DNA from: a virus
Strand: one strand, 5' to 3'
IMG/VR virus record: IMGVR_UViG_3300033146_001603
Coordinates: 1-31,492 of that record
DNA length: 31,492 nucleotides
Shown: in pieces, positions 4,486 through 17,307 of the stretch
Layout of the letters: each line of letters opens with the position of its first letter
Position numbering within the stretch: position 1 is the first letter of the stretch
The notes under the pieces: generated by a model
The model's database searches: none
What the model saw: only the letters and a program-made list of their open reading frames with translations
What the model was told of the DNA's origin: nothing
Made by a program: the position numbers and the translations under genes

Positions 4486-4854
4486 ATGTATAGTGATAAA
4501 GTAATGGATCATTTTTCAAATCCACGAAATGTTGGGGATTTAGAAAACGCAAATGCTGTTGGTGAAGTAGGAAATGCCACCTGCGGTGATATAATGCGAA
4601 TGTATTTAATAGTTGAAGATAATATTATTAAAGATATTCGGTTCAAAACATTTGGGTGCGGTGCTGCTATAGCCACGTCTTCAATGGCAACAGAAATGGC
4701 AATAGGTAGGACTTTAGAAGAAGCTGAAGCTCTAACGGATTTGGCGGTAGCTGAAGCCTTAGAAGGATTGCCACCGGAAAAAATGCATTGTTCAAATTTA
4801 GCTGCAAGTGCTATTCATGAAGCAATTAAAAATTATCGTTTAGAAAATTCTTAA
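4486..4854 (+). CDS. NifU/IscU-type iron-sulfur cluster scaffold
   Basis: This 122-residue protein matches the N-terminal NifU/IscU scaffold domain over its whole length. It begins with the family's YSDKVMDHFSNPRNVG signature. All three cluster-binding cysteines are present (Cys33, Cys58, Cys102), as is Asp35 in the NATCGD loop. The LPPEKMHCS segment (95-103) carries the LPPEK form seen in NifU-like proteins rather than the LPPVK of E. coli IscU. It should assemble Fe-S clusters for transfer to apo-proteins. It sits at the end of the late fibre unit and ends tail-to-tail with the HNH gene (4-base overlap). No cysteine desulfurase is visible, so host IscS/NifS would have to supply sulfur. A potential client is the radical SAM enzyme at 307. 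Confidence 0.92.
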   Translation: MYSDKVMDHFSNPRNVGDLENANAVGEVGNATCGDIMRMYLIVEDNIIKDIRFKTFGCGAAIATSSMATEMAIGRTLEEAEALTDLAVAEALEGLPPEKMHCSNLAASAIHEAIKNYRLENS

Positions 4855-5155: not shown

Positions 5156-5644
5156 ATGAAACAATTAAAACAAAAAGAATTAAAAGATTTACGTGAAAAA
5201 TTGTACGCAGAACAAAAAGGTATTTGTCCACTTTGTAAAACCAAAATTCGACTTGATGAAGCGGTTATAGATCATCAACATAAAACACTAAAAGAAGAAA
5301 TCGGTGCTGATGGCGCAGGGTTAGTTCGTGGCGTTTTGTGTCATAGATGTAATACTGTCGAAGGTGGAATGATTAACAAGTTCAGACGCTATGGAATATA
5401 CCTAAAGGACTATACCCAATTTTTAAGAAATTTAGCGGATTATTTGGATCAAGAACCTCTCCCCTATATTCATCCTACCGAAGCTCCAAAAATCCCCAAA
5501 TTAGGCAAACGTGATTTCAATAAATTATTAAAACTTTATAAAGCGAAATATCCAAGAAGAAAAAAAGGATTAACTTATCCGAAATCAGGTAAGCTTACTA
5601 AAAAATGGATAGATTTATTGGAAGAATTTAAGGAGGATTGGTGA
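5156..5644 (+). CDS. 49: Recombination endonuclease VII (Holliday junction resolvase)
   Basis: This 162-residue homologue of T4 gp49 (157 residues in T4) resolves branched DNA before packaging. The zinc cysteines are Cys24/Cys27 and Cys62/Cys65, the catalytic Asp39-His40 pair sits in VIDHQH, and Asn66 completes the His-Me active site (CHRCN). The C-terminal half is Lys-rich and helical, in keeping with the dimer-forming and DNA-binding part of the family. AAGGAG lies 6 bases before the ATG. A late promoter element directly precedes it, which fits the late need for this enzyme. Its TGA overlaps the LpxC start by one base. Confidence 0.92.
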   Translation: MKQLKQKELKDLREKLYAEQKGICPLCKTKIRLDEAVIDHQHKTLKEEIGADGAGLVRGVLCHRCNTVEGGMINKFRRYGIYLKDYTQFLRNLADYLDQEPLPYIHPTEAPKIPKLGKRDFNKLLKLYKAKYPRRKKGLTYPKSGKLTKKWIDLLEEFKEDW

Positions 5645-6483
5645 TGCTAATGAAACAACGAACATTAAAAGATGAATATAAATTTGAAGGGATTGGTCTT
5701 CATAGTGGACAACGATCTAAATTGATATTAAAACCAGCTGGTCCAAATCATGGAATTGTGTTTCATGCCAAACATTCTTTTGTTATAACAAAAATTCCAT
5801 ATTGTATTGAAAACGTTACTGATTCTAATTATTCAACTACTATTGGGAAAGATGGCGTATATGTTCAAACAATTGAACATTTAATGTCAGTTCTTTATGC
5901 GTTACATATTGATAATTTAGATATTTTCATTGAAGGTGATGAAGTTCCAGCTTTAGATGGTTCAGCTTTGGAATTCTGGATCGGGATCAATTATGTTGGT
6001 CTTGAATTCTATGAAAAATTCAATCAAGAGCCAATTAAAATAAAAGAGCCTTTGGAAGTCCATGATGGCAATTCATATATTAAAATCTCCCCCTGTAATC
6101 ATAAATTAGATATTCGATGTAGTATTGATTTTCCAAATACGGTAATTGGCAATCAAAACATTCAGATGATAATGGAAACAAGAAGTTTTATTACTGAAAT
6201 TATGTCTGCCAAAACGTTTGGATTTATGAAAGATTATGATGAATTGTTAATTAAAGGATTAGCTCAAGGTTCAAATCCACAGAACACAATTATTATTGGA
6301 AATCCTAATATCATCAATCCAAATGAGATGGTTCATTCTGATGATTTTGTTCGGCATAAAATATTAGATTTAATGGGTGATTTATCCTTGTTAGGGAGAC
6401 CATTATGTGGTTCAATTGATTCTTATTGTGCTGGTCATTCATTAAATCAAAAAATAGTGAAAAAGATACTTGACAATTGTTAA
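5644..6483 (+). CDS. lpxC: LpxC: UDP-3-O-acyl-N-acetylglucosamine deacetylase
   Basis: This is a full LpxC-family protein of 279 residues from the ATG at 5644, which has AGGAGG 7 bases upstream and overlaps the previous stop (TGATG). LpxC is the zinc enzyme that commits UDP-GlcNAc derivatives to lipid A synthesis in Gram-negative bacteria. Zinc ligands His79, His238 and Asp242, the general base Glu78, the catalytic His265, and Thr191-Phe192 all fall at the same numbers as in E. coli LpxC. The GIGLHSG start, IEHLMS, DGSA and VRHKILDLMGDL blocks are clear. The protein ends at residue 279, so it lacks the last 26 or so residues of the 305-residue E. coli enzyme, the region that holds the FtsH degradation signal. 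A role in altering host LPS or envelope synthesis during infection is inference. Confidence 0.93.
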   Translation: MLMKQRTLKDEYKFEGIGLHSGQRSKLILKPAGPNHGIVFHAKHSFVITKIPYCIENVTDSNYSTTIGKDGVYVQTIEHLMSVLYALHIDNLDIFIEGDEVPALDGSALEFWIGINYVGLEFYEKFNQEPIKIKEPLEVHDGNSYIKISPCNHKLDIRCSIDFPNTVIGNQNIQMIMETRSFITEIMSAKTFGFMKDYDELLIKGLAQGSNPQNTIIIGNPNIINPNEMVHSDDFVRHKILDLMGDLSLLGRPLCGSIDSYCAGHSLNQKIVKKILDNC

Positions 6484-6498
6484 GTATTCGTATATAAT
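6470..6498 (+). promoter_or_regulatory. Sigma70-type promoter for the topoisomerase/modification unit
   Basis: A perfect TTGACA (6470-6475), 17-base spacer and perfect TATAAT (6493-6498) overlap the last codons and stop of lpxC. The start point should be near 6505. The wider -35 box (ACTTGACAATT) is shared with the promoters at 18454 and 23844. It can drive everything from 6505 to 14396. Confidence 0.88.
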
Positions 6499-6504
6499 AC
6501 AGGT

Positions 6505-6651
6505 ATGAAAAAGTCAATTCCAAAAATAAATAAATTAGCCGGACTTAGGTTGAAAACCAAAGCTCCGGTTACTTTTGTTGATAAAAAGAAATCAACGAAT
6601 AAATCTGCTTGTCGTGGAAAGGTAAAGAATGGCAACTTTGAGAAAGAATGA
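6505..6651 (+). CDS. Possible small basic leader protein (48 aa)
   Basis: A 48-codon ORF begins at the predicted transcription start of the promoter before it, so the message would be leaderless. No Shine-Dalgarno site is present. It is strongly basic (many Lys, one Cys) with no recognised motif, and overlaps the start of the topoisomerase gene by 23 bases. It may be a real small protein, or simply an open stretch in the 5' leader. The leader also contains a possible weak hairpin (CCGGA near 6539 with TCCGG near 6565). Confidence 0.35.
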   Translation: MKKSIPKINKLAGLRLKTKAPVTFVDKKKSTNKSACRGKVKNGNFEKE

Positions 6652-8500
6652 TATTCAAACACTTGGGGAATTAGAATATGTTCTCAAGCGACCTGGAATT
6701 TATATTGGTTCAATCAAGGAAGAAATGGTTGAAAAATATATGTATGAAGGTGCTAAGATGGTTAAAAAAACTGTACCTTTTATCCCTGGTTTAATTAAAA
6801 TTATTGAAGAAGTTATTGATAATTCAATTGATGAATCCATTGAAACGAATTTTGTCTTTGCTAATAAAATCAATGTCACTTATGATAATGGTATTATTAC
6901 AGTTAAAGATAATGGTCGTGGTTTGCCAATTGCCAAAGATAAATTAACCGGAAAAAATGTAGTTGAAAATATCTTTACAGAACTTCGTACTGGTTCAAAT
7001 TTTGATGATGAAAAACGAGCCGAAAAAGAAAAGAAGGGGATGAATGGCGTTGGTGTTTCCCTTACTAATATTTTCAGTGATTGGCTTCAAGTTAAAACCG
7101 CCAATGGTGCTCGACAATATATCCAAAAATTTGAATTGGGACCAGTTAAACGTCTTCCTGCTAAAATAACAGAATCTGATAATAATTTTACTGAAGTCAC
7201 ATTTAAACCGAATTATGCTTATTTTGAGCCTTCAGAAGAATTCATGAAAGTTTTACCTGATTTAATTTATCGGGTATTACGAAATGCTGCTTTCTGTTTT
7301 CCCGAAATCAATTTCAAGTTTAATGGTAAAAAAATTGGTGGTTCCAATTTAAGACAATTCATGTTAACAATTCATCCTATCAATGAATTCACCGAAAATG
7401 AAAAAGTACGTCTTGGTGTATTCTGTTCAGATGATGGCTTTCAACATCTAAGCTTTGTGAATGGTTTGGATACCTCTCGCGCAGGAACACATATTGATTA
7501 TGTAACAAATACTATCGTTAATAAACTTAGAGAATATATTAAGAAAAAATATAAATTGGAAGTTAAACCAGCCGATATTCGAAATAAATTATTCATTTTG
7601 TTGTCAGTACGGATACCTGCGCCTGATTTTGATGGTCAAACTAAAGAACGATTGATTACTCCAAATTCTTCATATAATGATCGAATGATTAGTATATTCA
7701 GTGATAAGTTTTTCAAGCAATTGATTAAGAATGAAGAAATTATTGAACCAATAGTTGAATCATATCGTTTGAAAAAACAAGTTGAAGAAAATATTAACTT
7801 GAAGAAAATCAGCCAACAAAAACAAACCAAAATTCGTGTTGAAAAATATCTCCCAGCGACCAAACATCGTAAATGGTTAGTATTAACTGAAGGTGATTCT
7901 GCCAAAGGTTCAATATCAGCGGTATTAGGTCGGGAGGAATACAGTTATTTTCCCCTCAAAGGGAAACCACTCAATGCTTATGAAGCAAAACCAAGCGTAA
8001 TTGTTAAAAATGCTGAATTTCAGAATATCGTTAAAATAACAGGAATGCGTTTAGATAAAGATATTCAAAATCAACTTAGATATGAGAATATTTTATTTGC
8101 GACAGATCAAGATGCTGATGGAAGTCACATTAAAGCTTTATTATTAGCATATTTTGGGAGATTTGGTATTTCGTTAATCAAAGCCAAGAAGATTCATTTT
8201 CTCAGAACACCATTGATAGCAATTAAGAAAAAGGGAAAGATTGTAGATTATTTTTTCGATTTTGAAGATTATAATAAAAGTAACACAAAAGGTGGAGATG
8301 TTTTATACTATAAAGGGTTGGGAACTTGGGATGCGAAAGATCTCAAAGGAATTATTAAAAAAGATGGAATCAATAATTTCATTTTAACATTCACTTGGGA
8401 TGATGAGTCAAGTCAATCTTTGAAAAATTGGATTGGTTCAGATGCCGATCTCAGAAAACCTTTATTGCGAGGCAAAACATTTAGTTTTGATGGTGTTTGA
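6629..8500 (+). CDS. 39: Type II DNA topoisomerase large subunit (gp39/gp60 type)
   Basis: This 623-residue ATPase/toprim subunit corresponds to T4 gp39 plus gp60 in one chain; T4 itself splits it. The GHKL ATP site is complete: the EEVIDNSID box around 60-68, DNGRG at 94-98 and GMNGVGVS at 137-144, with the QTK lysine of the transducer at 337-339. The toprim half has EGDSAKGS (421-428), PLKGKPLN (442-449) and DQDADGSH (493-500), the Mg-binding acidic cluster. It works with the gp52-type subunit at 13074 to relieve supercoils during replication. GGAAAGG precedes the ATG. The stop overlaps the next gene by one base (TGATG). Confidence 0.96.
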   Translation: MATLRKNDIQTLGELEYVLKRPGIYIGSIKEEMVEKYMYEGAKMVKKTVPFIPGLIKIIEEVIDNSIDESIETNFVFANKINVTYDNGIITVKDNGRGLPIAKDKLTGKNVVENIFTELRTGSNFDDEKRAEKEKKGMNGVGVSLTNIFSDWLQVKTANGARQYIQKFELGPVKRLPAKITESDNNFTEVTFKPNYAYFEPSEEFMKVLPDLIYRVLRNAAFCFPEINFKFNGKKIGGSNLRQFMLTIHPINEFTENEKVRLGVFCSDDGFQHLSFVNGLDTSRAGTHIDYVTNTIVNKLREYIKKKYKLEVKPADIRNKLFILLSVRIPAPDFDGQTKERLITPNSSYNDRMISIFSDKFFKQLIKNEEIIEPIVESYRLKKQVEENINLKKISQQKQTKIRVEKYLPATKHRKWLVLTEGDSAKGSISAVLGREEYSYFPLKGKPLNAYEAKPSVIVKNAEFQNIVKITGMRLDKDIQNQLRYENILFATDQDADGSHIKALLLAYFGRFGISLIKAKKIHFLRTPLIAIKKKGKIVDYFFDFEDYNKSNTKGGDVLYYKGLGTWDAKDLKGIIKKDGINNFILTFTWDDESSQSLKNWIGSDADLRKPLLRGKTFSFDGV

Positions 8501-9447
8501 TGTTAGATGATAATCAAAAGGAAGATTTATTATTTGAATTGATGACTTCACAGAAAGATACTTCTGTAACATCTAATATGATACAAACACGTCAAGATGA
8601 TTATAATGAGGATGTTTGTTGGCAATATAATATTAGGGTTAATAATTTAGAGGATGATTTAAAGAAAGCATTTCTCACCAAAGAAGAAGTTTCGAATTTA
8701 AGAACTTCGGATTTCACTTTTCGATTATTAGAAACCAAACGTGAGCAGAATGAAGCGGTGGAATTTATTAAACGGCATGAGTGGTTGGGTACAATTTCAC
8801 AATTCACAACTCATTGGTTTGGTGCTTATTATAATGATATTTTAAGTGGTATTATTTTAATGAATCAACCTAATGCTTTTAGTAAGATGTTGGGAGAAGC
8901 CACGCCACAACTTGAACGTTTAGTTTCTAGGGGTGCTTGTATTTCTTGGTCTCCAAAAAATTTAGCTTCGAATTTTTTAATGTGGTGTATCAAATATATG
9001 GTACAAAATACACAATATCGTTTATTCACAGCATATTCTGATCCTGAAGCAAAAGAATTAGGCACAATATATCAAGCATGTAATTGGTATTATTTGGGTC
9101 AAACATTTGGAGCCAACAGAAGATATTATTCACCATATACCGGAAAATTGGTTTCTGATCGTACATTTAGATGTGTATCATTTTATCGAAAATATGCGAA
9201 AGAACTCGGAATTCGCTGGGAGAAAAATTGGGTTGACAAACAGAAAATTTTATGGGATAATATGCCTAAAGATGTAGAAGATAAATTACGTTTGATGTCA
9301 AAAACCAAACAACAAGAATCTGATTATATTGAACCACCATTAAAACACAAATATGCTTATGTTCTTGGTGATAATAAAAAGGAAACAAAACGATTGAAAA
9401 AACAAATGGCATTAATCAAAACATACCCTTATCCCAAAGAACGTTAA
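8500..9447 (+). CDS. Mom-like GNAT acyltransferase 1 (putative DNA modification)
   Basis: This 315-residue protein has a GNAT-like core in its middle part. Residues about 75-205 show an HEWLG entry, strands around WFGAYYNDILSG, a LERLVS-RGACISWSPKN segment, and the hallmark YSDPEAKELGTIYQACNWYYLG (179-200). That block closely resembles the S-D-G/P...GxIYQAxNWxYxG block of the phage Mu Mom family, which converts adenine to N6-carbamoylmethyladenine. An N-terminal extension of about 70 residues and a Lys-rich tail of about 80 residues are extra. It starts one base inside the topoisomerase stop (ATG at 8500) and overlaps the methylase stop-start by one base. It may be an acyltransferase acting on DNA bases; the exact chemistry is not known. 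Confidence 0.72.
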   Translation: MLDDNQKEDLLFELMTSQKDTSVTSNMIQTRQDDYNEDVCWQYNIRVNNLEDDLKKAFLTKEEVSNLRTSDFTFRLLETKREQNEAVEFIKRHEWLGTISQFTTHWFGAYYNDILSGIILMNQPNAFSKMLGEATPQLERLVSRGACISWSPKNLASNFLMWCIKYMVQNTQYRLFTAYSDPEAKELGTIYQACNWYYLGQTFGANRRYYSPYTGKLVSDRTFRCVSFYRKYAKELGIRWEKNWVDKQKILWDNMPKDVEDKLRLMSKTKQQESDYIEPPLKHKYAYVLGDNKKETKRLKKQMALIKTYPYPKER

Positions 9448-10322
9448 TGATAACTTTTTTTAGATATTCTGGTACTAAAGCAAATCCATTATATATTGAT
9501 AAAATTAATGAATTTGTGAATTCATGTACTAATGAAATTTATGTTGAGCCGTTTGTGGGTTCGGGTGGAATTTTCTTTAATTTAGAAAAATCATTCCAAC
9601 ATTATATTTTAAGTGATCTTGATTCAAATATTATTAGAATCTATAAATCATTTAAGGAAATGAAATCATATTCTCAATATATTGAAATTTATACAGAAGT
9701 CTTTAATAAATTTGGAACATTATTAATTGATAATCGATATTGTGACCAAAAACAAGCAGAAGAATTAAAACGTTCATATTATGAATTTAGAGCTTGGTTC
9801 AATCAAAATTATTGGAAAACCGATACATTTGAAGAAGGAGTTTATTTACATTTATTGACAAATTCATGTTTGAATTCATTCTTGAGATTTGGACCAAATG
9901 GGATGAATCAATCATATGGGTTAAGGTGTTATCTATTATCTCAAACCAATTTTAATGTTATCAATTCCAAATTACAAAAATGTGATTTAATTTGTTCGGA
10001 TTATCAAAGCATTATTAATGATAATCCAACAGCTTTGTTTTTTCTCGATCCACCATATCAATCTCAAGATAGTTCATATACTCCCTTTGATGAAAATGAT
10101 TTAAAAGAATTTATTAAAAAAATTAAACCAATAGAATTTATCTATACAGATATTTTGAATAATATAAATTCAACATTAAAACATAAATTATATCTGAGAA
10201 ATATTAATAGCACTTCACCAAATCGAAAAGAAACCGAAACAAAAAATGAAGAATTCTTATTCACTTATAAGGAATTCCCAAAGAATGGTTTATTATCATT
10301 CATAGAGGATAACGAAATATGA
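9447..10322 (+). CDS. Dam-type DNA adenine N6-methyltransferase
   Basis: This 291-residue protein is a D12-class (Dam-like) adenine methylase. It begins with FFRYSGTKANPL, the counterpart of the Dam YxGGK segment, has the AdoMet-binding motif I EPFVGSGG at 34-41, a middle target-recognition region, and catalytic motif IV DPPY at 201-204. It would methylate adenine N6, or a modified form of it, in phage DNA. It overlaps its neighbours on both sides (TAATG at the start, ATGA at the end), so it is translationally coupled to the Mom-like gene before and the second methylase-fold gene after. Confidence 0.9.
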   Translation: MITFFRYSGTKANPLYIDKINEFVNSCTNEIYVEPFVGSGGIFFNLEKSFQHYILSDLDSNIIRIYKSFKEMKSYSQYIEIYTEVFNKFGTLLIDNRYCDQKQAEELKRSYYEFRAWFNQNYWKTDTFEEGVYLHLLTNSCLNSFLRFGPNGMNQSYGLRCYLLSQTNFNVINSKLQKCDLICSDYQSIINDNPTALFFLDPPYQSQDSSYTPFDENDLKEFIKKIKPIEFIYTDILNNINSTLKHKLYLRNINSTSPNRKETETKNEEFLFTYKEFPKNGLLSFIEDNEI

Positions 10323-11380
10323 AAAAAATATTAACTGTTGAAGATTTCAAAAATCATGAAATTCAATATGGTGTAACCGTTAATGGGAGAAAATATCCCT
10401 ACTATGTTCAAATGGATGATGAAACATACAACACACTCATTGAACTAATGACCACCAAACCAAATTTGGATAAAGTAAAATATGAGATAAGACAATTACA
10501 TAATGGGAATAACAAAACCTCTTTGGTAGAGAAATATTTCTTCTTGGATTTAATGTATAAAGTTGAAACAAAAGTTTCAAAAAAATCAATTGAAAAAACA
10601 CTCCAAAATAAAGATTTGATGTCTTATATGGTTGCGAAAATTTTAGTTAAACGGAAGTTGTTTTATGATAGACTAATGATTAATAATTTCCTCAAATGTT
10701 TTAGTATGTCAACTTTTGAATTTGGGGGAAAACCACCAAATTATCCAATTAAATCAGTAAAGGAAGTATTGATAAAATATAACATCAATGATAATTATTA
10801 TGATTATTCCTGCGGGTGGGGAAATCGGTTATTGGGTTCTTTAGTTGAAAAAGTTAATTATCATGGTACTGATCCAAATTATTTATTGACAGAAAGATTA
10901 AAAGAATTAGCTGATACATATGAGGAAGTGAATACATTAAAATCAAGTGTTGATATACGGACACAAGGTTCGGAGATATTCATTCCTGAATGGGAAAATA
11001 AAATGGGGATGGCATTTAGTTCTCCACCATATTATGATGTAGAAGATTACAAAATTGGTGATCAATCTGTTAAAGCAAACACCTCATATGATGAATGGTT
11101 GAATACCTATTGGTCAGGCACTGTTAAAAACATTAAAAAGTATTTGGTTGAGAATGGTTTCTTCCTTTTGAATATGAAGAACATGAAAAAATATAATCTA
11201 TTGGATGATATGTCTGAAATCATATTGAATAATGGGTTTAATCTGTTTGGGAAAGAATTGCTGGTTAATATCACTCGAAAAGTTGATGAAGATAATAATG
11301 AGGATATTGTGGTGTTTATAGATGAACATTCAGATAATCCTCAAACGAATAATTCAAGTTTGGAGTCATTTTTTGATTGA
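10319..11380 (+). CDS. SPPYY-motif methyltransferase-fold protein with clamp-binding-like C-terminus
   Basis: This 353-residue protein has an N-terminal helical region (about 1-130) and a Rossmann methylase core. The core includes YDYSCGWGNRLLGS (161-174) as motif I, HGTDPN (182-187) as motif II, and SSPPYYDVEDY (234-244) as motif IV. The S-P-P-Y form is typical of N4-cytosine or related beta-class enzymes, but the target base cannot be inferred. The last ten residues, NNSSLESFFD, resemble the DNA polymerase tail in this window (SLEDFFS) and the RB69 polymerase clamp-binding tail. It overlaps the Dam-type gene by 4 bases and the PLP gene start by 8. It probably takes part in DNA modification with its neighbours. 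Confidence 0.8.
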   Translation: MKKILTVEDFKNHEIQYGVTVNGRKYPYYVQMDDETYNTLIELMTTKPNLDKVKYEIRQLHNGNNKTSLVEKYFFLDLMYKVETKVSKKSIEKTLQNKDLMSYMVAKILVKRKLFYDRLMINNFLKCFSMSTFEFGGKPPNYPIKSVKEVLIKYNINDNYYDYSCGWGNRLLGSLVEKVNYHGTDPNYLLTERLKELADTYEEVNTLKSSVDIRTQGSEIFIPEWENKMGMAFSSPPYYDVEDYKIGDQSVKANTSYDEWLNTYWSGTVKNIKKYLVENGFFLLNMKNMKKYNLLDDMSEIILNNGFNLFGKELLVNITRKVDEDNNEDIVVFIDEHSDNPQTNNSSLESFFD

Positions 11381-12263
11381 TGTAAATTGGATATCGCCTA
11401 TTGAAGAATATGATATATTGTATAAACGAGATGATTTATTTTCTCCATTTGAAAATGGGGTTAATGGTGGTAAAGCTCGGCAAGCAATATCATTGATATA
11501 TAATAATCTTGATCATATACGTGAGAATTGTAATAATACAATAATTACTGCGACAAATATAGATTCCCCTCAAGGAATAATCATTTCCACGGTAGCAAAA
11601 CATTTTGGTGTTCGTTCAAAAGTTGCGTTTGGTTATGTTGGAAGGGATAAAGACAAGCTTTGTAAAAATCATTTAGTTCAAAAAACAATTGCTGCGGGTG
11701 GGGAAATTGAAATCATAGCAAATGCGCCTTATACCGCAGCTGTTAATAAAGCGTTACGTGAAGTTGTATCTGCCCGAAAATATTTCCCGATTAAATTTGG
11801 TATAAATGCTTCTGATAATGCTGATAGTATTTTTGGTGTTATTGAAAATCAAGTTCAAAATATACCAAAAGATTTAGATTTATTAATAATTCCTGTGGGT
11901 AGTGGTTTAATATTTAGTGGTATTTTGCGTGGATTATTAAAATATAACTTGACACCAAAAAGAATTATTGGTATACTGAGTGGAATGGATAGTTCAAAAG
12001 ATATTGAAAAGAATCTTACATCATATGGGATAAAGCGTAATTGTCAAAATAGTTCTATATTGGATTTTATGGGAAGTGAAACCAAATTAGAATATGAAAT
12101 TCACAAAAGTGATTTAAAATATCATCAGAAAAAATATATTGATGAGCCATTTAGTTTTGATCCTATTTATGAAGTAAAAGCACTTTTGTGGTATAAAAAA
12201 AACATAAAAGAAACAGGCAAACATTTATTATGGGTTGTTGGCAATCAAAGATTTATGTATTAG
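11373..12263 (+). CDS. Fold-type II PLP-dependent enzyme (ACC deaminase / cysteine desulfhydrase-like)
   Basis: This 296-residue protein resembles the tryptophan-synthase-beta superfamily of pyridoxal-phosphate enzymes, closest in pattern to ACC deaminase and D-cysteine desulfhydrase. It has KRDDLFSP (18-25), the PLP lysine Lys34 in NGGKARQA, an SPQG turn (65-68), and the phosphate-binding loop PVGSGLIFSG (174-183). I chose the TTG start at 11373, with GGAG 7 bases upstream; the ATG at 11322 would force a 59-base overlap and add 17 residues with no match to the fold. Its position inside the Mom/methylase cluster suggests that it makes or processes an amino-acid-derived group for base modification. 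That is inference; it could instead be an unrelated metabolic gene. Confidence 0.82.
   Translation: MIDVNWISPIEEYDILYKRDDLFSPFENGVNGGKARQAISLIYNNLDHIRENCNNTIITATNIDSPQGIIISTVAKHFGVRSKVAFGYVGRDKDKLCKNHLVQKTIAAGGEIEIIANAPYTAAVNKALREVVSARKYFPIKFGINASDNADSIFGVIENQVQNIPKDLDLLIIPVGSGLIFSGILRGLLKYNLTPKRIIGILSGMDSSKDIEKNLTSYGIKRNCQNSSILDFMGSETKLEYEIHKSDLKYHQKKYIDEPFSFDPIYEVKALLWYKKNIKETGKHLLWVVGNQRFMY
11949..11977 (+). promoter_or_regulatory. Internal sigma70-type promoter inside the PLP gene
   Basis: TTGACA (11949-11954), a 17-base spacer and TATACT (11972-11977) match the pattern of the intergenic promoters in this phage exactly. It lies within coding sequence about 300 bases before the second Mom-like gene and could provide extra transcripts of that gene and the topoisomerase medium subunit. 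Confidence 0.5.
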
Positions 12264-12272
12264 GATTATTAT

Positions 12273-13061
12273 ATGAAACAAATTATTGGCAAAAAATATT
12301 ATGTAAAAGAAACAACTCCCGAATTAGCTAGGAAAATCATAAAGAAATTTCATTATTCGAAAAAATGTGTTTCTAATTCAAACGTACATTTGGGTGTATT
12401 TAGAATAGATGATCATAATCTGATTGGAGCACTTCAATTGGGTCCAAGTATGAATGGATACAAAACAACATCAAAATTTCATACATCTGAAAAATGTTTA
12501 GAATTAAATAGAATGGCTATTGATGAGTCTGAACCAAGAAACACCGAATCACAAGTTTTGGCATTGATGTTTAAATGGTTGAAGAAATATACTGATATAG
12601 ATTTTCTAATTTCATTTAGTGATGGAAAAGAAGACAATGTTGGATATATTTATCAAGCAACGAATTGGATATATGTTGGTTATTTGATTAGTGATAGTTT
12701 TTGGGATTTAGATGGTAAAATTTTACATAGTGTTACGGTTTGGCATCAATTTAAAGAAAAAAAAGATATAGTTAAAGAAAATTCATTAAATGTTTTTTTG
12801 GGGGTTGAAACTATTCCGAAAACTACTAATGAATATTTATGTGAAGTTTTTGATAATGTAAGTGTTATTACTTCAAAGCAGCATATCTATCTATATCCAA
12901 TAAAAAAACGAATTAAATTTAAATTAGAAAAACAAAAATATCCTAAAATGGATACAGAAATTCCTATATTAAAAAGAAAAATTATTAAAGAAAATGGTAA
13001 AATATTGAAACAACCAAAACATAAAGTTTATTCTAATGAACCACTAAAACCATGTATTTAA
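12273..13061 (+). CDS. Mom family adenine-modification acyltransferase 2
   Basis: This 262-residue protein is the clearest Mom homologue of the window. It has the FHYSKKCVSN entry near 26-35, the HLGVF...LIGALQLGP strands (39-58), LELNRMAIDESEPRNTES (76-93) with the conserved R-N-(T/S)-ES, and SFSDGKEDNVGYIYQATNWIYVG (114-136), followed by a DGKILHS segment. Mu Mom installs the N6-carbamoylmethyl group on adenine and protects DNA from restriction. A basic C-terminal tail of about 90 residues may bind DNA. It follows the PLP gene by 9 bases and lies directly before the topoisomerase medium subunit. Two Mom-type genes in one cluster may act on different bases or in sequence. Confidence 0.85.
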   Translation: MKQIIGKKYYVKETTPELARKIIKKFHYSKKCVSNSNVHLGVFRIDDHNLIGALQLGPSMNGYKTTSKFHTSEKCLELNRMAIDESEPRNTESQVLALMFKWLKKYTDIDFLISFSDGKEDNVGYIYQATNWIYVGYLISDSFWDLDGKILHSVTVWHQFKEKKDIVKENSLNVFLGVETIPKTTNEYLCEVFDNVSVITSKQHIYLYPIKKRIKFKLEKQKYPKMDTEIPILKRKIIKENGKILKQPKHKVYSNEPLKPCI

Positions 13062-16610: not shown

Positions 16611-16969
16611 TGTCTTTTATGGAATTTTCTGGCATGGTAATGTGGTTTTTAGTTCTGATTCTTGCTATTGCTTATCTTAGTTTGATTATTTTAGATAGAC
16701 TTGAGATTTTGAAATTTGAGCAAAAGATTAAACGCTTTGAGCAAAAGATTGAACGCGAAAAACAAAGTCAAATTGAAATCGGCAACGCTATTTTTAATAA
16801 TGCTTATTGGCTAAGTGGTGATGAATTCAATGATGTTCATCCATATGTGCTTATGAAAACACTCGGAGAAATGATTCGTTTTTCGGATTCTTCATTTATA
16901 AATATGAATGACTTCAGAGAAAAATGTATTGATGAAACAAACATATATAAAGGAGATCAATTAAGATGA
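16610..16969 (+). CDS. Membrane-anchored coiled-coil protein (119 aa)
   Basis: An N-terminal transmembrane helix (about residues 6-29) is followed by a coiled coil built on a repeated heptad (FEQKIKR, FEQKIER; residues about 36-49), then a soluble tail. The heptad comes from a 21-base tandem duplication. The family is not recognised. It overlaps the P-loop kinase by one base and the cytochrome by 4 bases (ATGA), so the membrane protein and the cytochrome are translationally coupled. A function related to the cytochrome is possible but not shown. Confidence 0.75.
   Translation: MSFMEFSGMVMWFLVLILAIAYLSLIILDRLEILKFEQKIKRFEQKIEREKQSQIEIGNAIFNNAYWLSGDEFNDVHPYVLMKTLGEMIRFSDSSFINMNDFREKCIDETNIYKGDQLR
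16715..16756 (+). repeat. 21-bp tandem duplication inside a coiled-coil gene
   Basis: Two adjacent 21-base copies (16715-16735 and 16736-16756) differ at one base. They encode successive heptads FEQKIKR and FEQKIER, so the change is in frame and lengthens a coiled coil by two helical turns. Confidence 0.85.
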
Positions 16970-17307
16970 AACTTTTTATCGTTTTTTTACTATTGTTGGT
17001 CAGTTTATTCGTTATCGGTGCTTCATGCGTTAAATCTTCAACAGATATCCCTGAAGTATTTGTCATGGAAAATTCAAAAGGGGTTGTAACTTTTAATCAT
17101 AAACAACATTCTGAAGCATTTGAACATGATTGTGGCGTTTGTCACCATACAGGGGTTAAAAATCAAACTTGTTCGAATTGTCATAAAGAGAAGAAAACAG
17201 AAATTCTTTCTTCAAAAAATGCTTATCATAAAACCTGTAAAGGTTGTCATAAAATAATGGAACAGGGTCCGACTAAATGCGGTGAATGTCATGAAAAAAT
17301 TCATTGA
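16966..17307 (+). CDS. Tetraheme c-type cytochrome (class III / c3-like), exported
   Basis: The 113-residue product has a hydrophobic signal segment (residues 2-19) ending at Cys21, which may be a weak lipobox or a plain signal peptide. It carries four CXXCH heme sites: 56-60, 69-73, 91-95 and 105-109. His45 and His48 in the FNHKQH segment, and His54, His61 and His88, are candidate sixth ligands; the FxHxxH opening before the first heme is typical of cytochromes c3 and c7 of sulfate and metal reducers. It should carry electrons in the periplasm, with heme attached by host maturation proteins. It overlaps the membrane coiled-coil gene by 4 bases and the next gene by 17. It is very unusual in a T4-like phage and points to an anaerobic Gram-negative host. 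Confidence 0.92.
   Translation: MKLFIVFLLLLVSLFVIGASCVKSSTDIPEVFVMENSKGVVTFNHKQHSEAFEHDCGVCHHTGVKNQTCSNCHKEKKTEILSSKNAYHKTCKGCHKIMEQGPTKCGECHEKIH

Follow-up and report, generated by a model that had tools for sequence, protein, structure and literature searches.

The window analysed here is the whole 31,492-nucleotide stretch of the IMG/VR virus record IMGVR_UViG_3300033146_001603, which comes from an uncultivated phage sequenced in environmental DNA. On its plus strand, at 5644..6483, it carries an lpxC gene for UDP-3-O-acyl-N-acetylglucosamine deacetylase, assigned by Pfam, NCBIfam, alignment and an AlphaFold2 model. Directly upstream lies the gene for endonuclease VII (5156..5644, plus strand; Pfam and PHROGs), whose stop codon overlaps the lpxC start codon ATG at 5644, and a Shine-Dalgarno sequence, AAGGAGG (5630..5636, plus strand), stands 7 nt ahead of this ATG. 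Because stop and start overlap, translational coupling between endonuclease VII and lpxC is likely. An alternative in-frame ATG at 5650 would give a protein that is 2 residues shorter. A predicted sigma-70 promoter with the exact consensus TTGACA-17-TATAAT (6470..6498, plus strand) has its -35 box within the final lpxC codons, and is followed by a small conserved ORF (6505..6648, plus strand) and by the gene for the T4-type topoisomerase II large subunit (6629..8500, plus strand; Pfam and PHROGs). Exact sigma-70 sites are expected at 0.003 per shuffled window on the plus strand; near-consensus promoters with at most one mismatch, the site at 6470-6498 included, number nine in the window, eight of them on the plus strand, versus 0.94 expected.

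The PHROGs matches in the window comprise topoisomerase II subunits, DNA polymerase, clamp, clamp loader and endonuclease VII (phrog_543, 551, 262, 168, 223, 423). These T4-type core replication genes bear out the T4-like nature that the original prediction had ascribed to the genome. A dUTPase is also encoded in the window.

LpxC, a drug target, carries out the step that commits a bacterium to lipid A synthesis. The window lpxC is a complete ORF of 279 amino acids, with exactly the coordinates and the end at residue 279 given by the original prediction. Its product matched Pfam PF03331 with E=1.9e-84 (283.8 bits, cut-off 27) and the NCBIfam equivalog TIGR00325 with 253.1 bits, above the cut-off of 187.25, and PDB sequences were matched with E values down to 1.3e-51, scores that place the family match far beyond chance. 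Given this family membership, the protein is probably an active enzyme. The bifunctional LpxC/FabZ model PRK13188 was matched over the LpxC part only, with 196 bits against the 465 required, and no FabZ is fused to the protein. An N-terminal receiver domain is likewise absent, as the ORF begins at 5644 (or at 5638, with TTG) at the end of the endonuclease VII gene.

In the alignment with E. coli LpxC, the residues E78, H79, T191, F192, H238, K239, D242, D246 and H265 are the same and carry the same numbers in both proteins. This agrees with the original prediction, which had read Glu78, His79, His238, Asp242 and His265 at their E. coli positions and concluded that the active site is intact; all catalytic and zinc residues are present in the window LpxC. 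Following the LpxC literature, we take Glu78 to be the general base, His79, His238 and Asp242 to be zinc ligands, and His265 to be the catalytic histidine. Glu78 and His79 are encoded at 5875..5880, codons 238-242 (with His238, Lys239 and Asp242) at 6355..6369 and His265 at 6436..6438, all on the plus strand, with 14 residues after His265. Across the aligned LpxCs, E78, H79, H238, K239, D242, D246 and H265 were kept in 156/156 sequences and T191 in 155/156.

The AlphaFold2 model, computed from an input alignment of 34 LpxCs, reached a mean pLDDT of 94.4 and a pTM of 0.92. It adopts the two-domain LpxC fold, with TM scores of up to 0.95-0.96 to LpxC crystal structures in the PDB. Superposition on the Aquifex LpxC with its native product bound (4oze_A) gave a TMq of 0.91 and an rmsd of 1.6, and superposition on Pseudomonas LpxC a TMq of up to 0.95. 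The predicted fold is thus common to the window LpxC and the enzymes of Aquifex aeolicus and Pseudomonas aeruginosa (TMq 0.89-0.95), as are the zinc and catalytic residues and the catalytic core. Unlike these bacterial enzymes, to which it is 34-36% identical, the window LpxC is encoded in a T4-like phage operon and has 14 residues past the catalytic histidine. The final helix of the model, residues 265-278, is complete and the chain stops there. As modelled, the short C-terminus is a compact end directly past the last helix and does not prove that a degradation signal was lost.

A second contig from the same sample, IMGVR_UViG_3300033146_000616, has the same arrangement: endonuclease VII, a short stretch, lpxC, an exact sigma-70 promoter at the place equivalent to 6470-6498 of the window, the small ORF and topoisomerase II. 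The endonuclease VII overlap, the gene's own ribosome binding site and the presence of an LpxC in the same slot of this sister contig establish that the window lpxC is a genuine phage gene. Across the two loci of contig 616 that were compared, 26 of the 48 window genes were matched, and LpxC was the least similar of them, with 35% identity against 48-91% for the others (82% for endonuclease VII, 55% for the small ORF and 86% for the topoisomerase II large subunit). At the DNA level, similarity between the two contigs stops ~15 bases before lpxC (window position 5629) and resumes at 6554; within the gene it amounts to one 37-base piece only. The window LpxC is nearer to that of 3300033146_001182, also from this sample (43% over 261 residues), which sits among other genes. 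From this contrast in identity between lpxC and its neighbours, rather than from a tree, it appears that LpxC was either replaced by another LpxC in an unchanged slot or diverged much more quickly than the genes around it, replacement being the likelier course. The AU test did not reject the window and sister LpxCs as a pair (p 0.327).

LpxC is very rare in phages; the original prediction had called an enzyme of lipid A synthesis unusual for a T4-like genome. No PHROGs family matched the window LpxC, the viral structure library BFVD gave no fold match at E 0.001, and a tblastn search of 50,697 named phage records found an LpxC match in 7, among which the Vibrio phages K566 and K567, both with a remote LpxC, were the sole real-looking carriers. 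The record of Acinetobacter phage MD-2021a is bacterial, with an ftsQ-ftsA-ftsZ-lpxC cluster, and a second Acinetobacter-labelled record had the same match at the same place. A Salmonella enterica record was set aside on its title, and two unannotated fragments hold LpxC in open frames of 465-469 aa, one of them of LpxC/FabZ length. Our literature search, which covered open-licence papers, returned no description of a phage-encoded LpxC. In excerpts, lpxC appears in one paper whose title concerns cellular contamination, as an entry of its table on the KEGG functions of viral metagenomes (PMC3877843), and in another within a list of virulence-related genes (PMC12837969).

The K566 protein resembles the window LpxC in retaining the equivalents of E78, H79, H238, D242 and H265, and in both cases a gene of the LpxC family sits in a large phage. 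It differs in being a remote family member (28% identical, T191 lost, below the TIGR00325 cut-off), and the neighbourhood of its gene in the 255-kb K566 genome is not that of the window. The K566 gene adjoins a gene (9535-9984 of locus L007) annotated as PagP by the depositors, for which we found no Pfam or NCBIfam match.

Scans of IMG/VR limited to short motifs recovered LpxC in five contigs: 616, 3300033146_001182, 3300037540_000189, 3300028534_000076 and 2903405734_000002. Since such scans miss divergent genes, these carrier counts are lower bounds. Single-sequence scans (P0001) of viral and genome contigs gave no match, and two-row and six-row alignments were needed. The contigs 3300033146_001170, 001310, 004101 and 005143 gave no LpxC match, a result of little weight since each is a fragment. 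The LpxCs of the first four carriers are 34-43% identical to that of the window, score above the NCBIfam cut-off and keep the active site; retention of the active site at such identities argues for selection on activity. The 3300028534 contig also encodes endonuclease VII, an exonuclease and a dUTPase, and the 3300037540 contig a phage-family AIR synthetase and a homing endonuclease. The fifth contig, 2903405734_000002 (215 kb), is classed as viral and was kept apart from the phage set because its phage nature is unclear; its LpxC, at 8001-8933, is 58% identical to that of E. coli and ends in STLILA, which resembles the degron-bearing end of the E. coli protein.

Judging by the genomes sampled, the phage LpxCs do not appear to be recent copies of host genes. 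No cellular LpxC in these genomes exceeded 44% identity. That highest value came from Campylobacterota, which we rejected as the source since the trees did not support it. A quick tree of 73 rows (7 phage rows and 66 others out of 160 candidate loci, after clustering and hand changes) served for orientation only, and further trees had 44 and 42 hand-chosen rows. In these trees, the phage LpxCs form long branches without a fixed place. Neither a shared ancestry of all four T4-like phage LpxCs (p 0.34) nor the placement of three among them with Campylobacterota (p 0.334) was rejected by AU tests. Derivation from a cellular group of receiver-fused LpxCs was also considered and is not claimed here: its support of 96/87 in one tree, with three phages, was only 63/23 in a later one, and the GHxEN/GHxDN motif of that group is missing from the phage LpxCs.

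A weak hint at the host comes from a tetraheme cytochrome of the cytochrome c3/c7 family (16966-17307, plus strand; 113 aa), which has four CxxCH haem motifs and a signal-like start. It had no match in the 50,697 named phage records or in the two contig 616 loci compared. Matches were found in 102 of 148 genomes of the phylum that holds Desulfobacteraceae and Desulfomicrobium, the best at 46%, and in 10 of 150 Campylobacterota-group genomes, all of them weak. The relatives of the cytochrome thus point weakly to the former phylum as host.

By our own count, 33 of these 148 genomes carry LpxC in an open frame of at least 418 aa (418-1423 aa), and in 32 of the 33 this is the sole LpxC match. Among the six that were read (L204-L209), three have a receiver-LpxC and three a receiver-sigma-54 AAA-LpxC architecture, LpxC being in each case the output part of a response regulator. 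We rejected the idea that the long frames are LpxC-FabZ fusions: those fetched end soon after LpxC, and the six read have an N-terminal receiver. Our literature search, at the level of titles and abstracts, yielded no description of LpxC as a response-regulator output domain.

The window LpxC lacks the C-terminal 26 residues of E. coli LpxC, the LAxxxxxAVLA degron included, and ends in ...GHSLNQKIVKKILDNC. From this short end, the original prediction had argued that the enzyme lacks the degradation region and may be stable. In the window, 14 residues follow the catalytic histidine, compared with 16 in the sister contig 616, 16 in 001182, 13 in 3300028534, 22 in 3300037540, 24 in Vibrio phage K566, 41 in the 215-kb contig and 40 in E. 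coli. Among 148 non-redundant cellular LpxCs, 15 have 16-20 such residues and the remainder 21-65. This set is not random, consisting mostly of best matches to the phage proteins with 20 hand-picked from phylum searches, and one row of LpxC/FabZ length (L010) was left out of it. Some of the short-ended proteins lie in open frames of just 281-311 aa (L166-L170), and all 14 that are named, the shortest of the 15, belong to the phylum that includes Desulfobacteraceae and Desulfomicrobium.

According to excerpts from published work, the LAxxxxxAVLA degron and the control of LpxC by FtsH are largely restricted to Enterobacteriaceae, alphaproteobacterial and neisserial LpxCs being without the degron (PMC12444477), and an additional degron inside the protein is reported for E. 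coli LpxC (PMC10998244). With a degron found mostly in enterobacteria, and with 15 of the 148 cellular LpxCs nearly as short, the argument from a lost degron to a stable enzyme is unsupported. Judged from these sequences, the phage LpxCs end at the short edge of the range, with some cellular ones nearly equal, and the tail is no evidence for stability. The comparison with LpxC ends of the host clade, which the original prediction had proposed, went partly against the stability idea at the level of the phylum: cellular LpxCs ending 16-20 residues past the catalytic histidine do exist, at least 14 of the 15 in the weakly hinted host phylum.

The window lpxC is a new phage auxiliary metabolic gene with an ordinary enzyme. 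It resembles the auxiliary metabolic genes of T4-like phages, in which a host-type metabolic enzyme lies amid phage core genes. Starting from the gene, its phage context, its active site, its predicted fold and its recurrence in other phages, we infer its activity, expression time and benefit as follows. With a probability of about 0.55, it encodes a compact LpxC, trimmed to the catalytic core of two domains and probably active, by which lipid A synthesis is maintained or increased in the course of infection. That it keeps this synthesis running is our best guess, on grounds other than the tail. LpxC would be translated together with endonuclease VII and, in the infected cell, would deacetylate UDP-3-O-acyl-GlcNAc to UDP-3-O-acyl-glucosamine. 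The output of lipid A could thereby be kept or raised when the host LpxC is no longer renewed or is restrained by the host's own regulation, and the outer membrane might stay intact up to lysis by the phage. Apart from lpxC, a Pfam scan of 30 window proteins recognised no lipid A gene, and since the record is a 31-kb fragment, further ones may be missing from view. Excess LpxC is toxic in E. coli, according to an excerpt from PMC1838920, so a boost by the phage could also harm the host cell early.

It is possible, and in our view unlikely, that the gene instead serves to remodel the cell surface, shifting the LPS/phospholipid ratio or the LPS amount and hence receptor density, so that other phages are excluded or virions are not trapped on debris. 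Excerpts from two papers describe the LPS/phospholipid balance as set by the LpxC level (PMC1838920, PMC10998244), and the putative lipid A palmitoyltransferase PagP beside the K566 lpxC would fit such a role. However, the PagP annotation lacks a profile match, the K566 LpxC is itself remote and below the TIGR00325 cut-off, and no lipid A modifying gene was seen in the window. Less probable again is a repurposed deacetylase with another N-acetylated sugar nucleotide as its substrate, for example in DNA or surface sugar chemistry. The long branches, and identities that do not exceed 44% to the cellular LpxCs found, would suit this idea, as would two Mom-like proteins and a Dam-like methylase in the window, which suggest that DNA modification is part of this phage; against it, the protein retains T191, F192, K239 and the entire LpxC fold, and scores above the equivalog cut-off.

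Slightly less likely still is that the phage enzyme has lost the host's degradation tail, resists proteolysis and outlasts the host's own LpxC. The four T4-like phage LpxCs are indeed the shortest, with 13, 14, 16 and 16 residues past the catalytic histidine versus 16-65 in the 148 cellular ones, but the 15 cellular proteins at 16-20 residues, the largely enterobacterial FtsH control (PMC12444477) and the reported internal degron (PMC10998244) all weigh against this. An assembly artefact or cellular contamination, in favour of which one may cite that some LpxC-bearing 'phage' records such as MD-2021a are bacterial, is for practical purposes refuted by the sister contig with the same arrangement, and further contradicted by T4-type genes on both flanks of lpxC, with gene overlap, and by the lack of any cellular LpxC above 44% identity among those found.

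If the phage enzyme does sustain lipid A synthesis, the supply of outer-membrane lipid, besides nucleotides or energy, would limit infection in some hosts. Phage LpxCs would also be natural compact versions for probing the control of LpxC, and the putatively swapped slot would make it a testable question which LpxC a phage needs in which host. A bolder version, which we put forward tentatively and rather doubt, is twofold: a T4-like phage lineage would bring lipid A synthesis under its own command at the committed step, using an LpxC core free of the host's control of LpxC, and the place of lpxC between endonuclease VII and topoisomerase II would be a swap site, its flanks remaining 82-86% identical, at which LpxC variants suited to the envelope chemistries of different hosts are exchanged.

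The window holds several other genes of interest, all on the plus strand. Two Mom-family DNA modification proteins and a D12-class (Dam-like) adenine methylase are encoded near each other (8497-9447, 9447-10322 and 12273-13061); they are absent from the two contig 616 loci compared. A PALP-family PLP-dependent enzyme at 11322-12263 is ACC-deaminase-like and scores far below the cut-off for that function. The adjacent proteins at 1551-2045 and 2055-2492 had no Pfam or NCBIfam match; they share a common start, MKIRNGFVSNSSSSSFI, diverge thereafter and lie behind a radical SAM gene (307-1335, phrog_7293). Finally, 4486-4854 encodes a NifU/IscU-type Fe-S scaffold protein that scores above its NCBIfam cut-off (TIGR03419).
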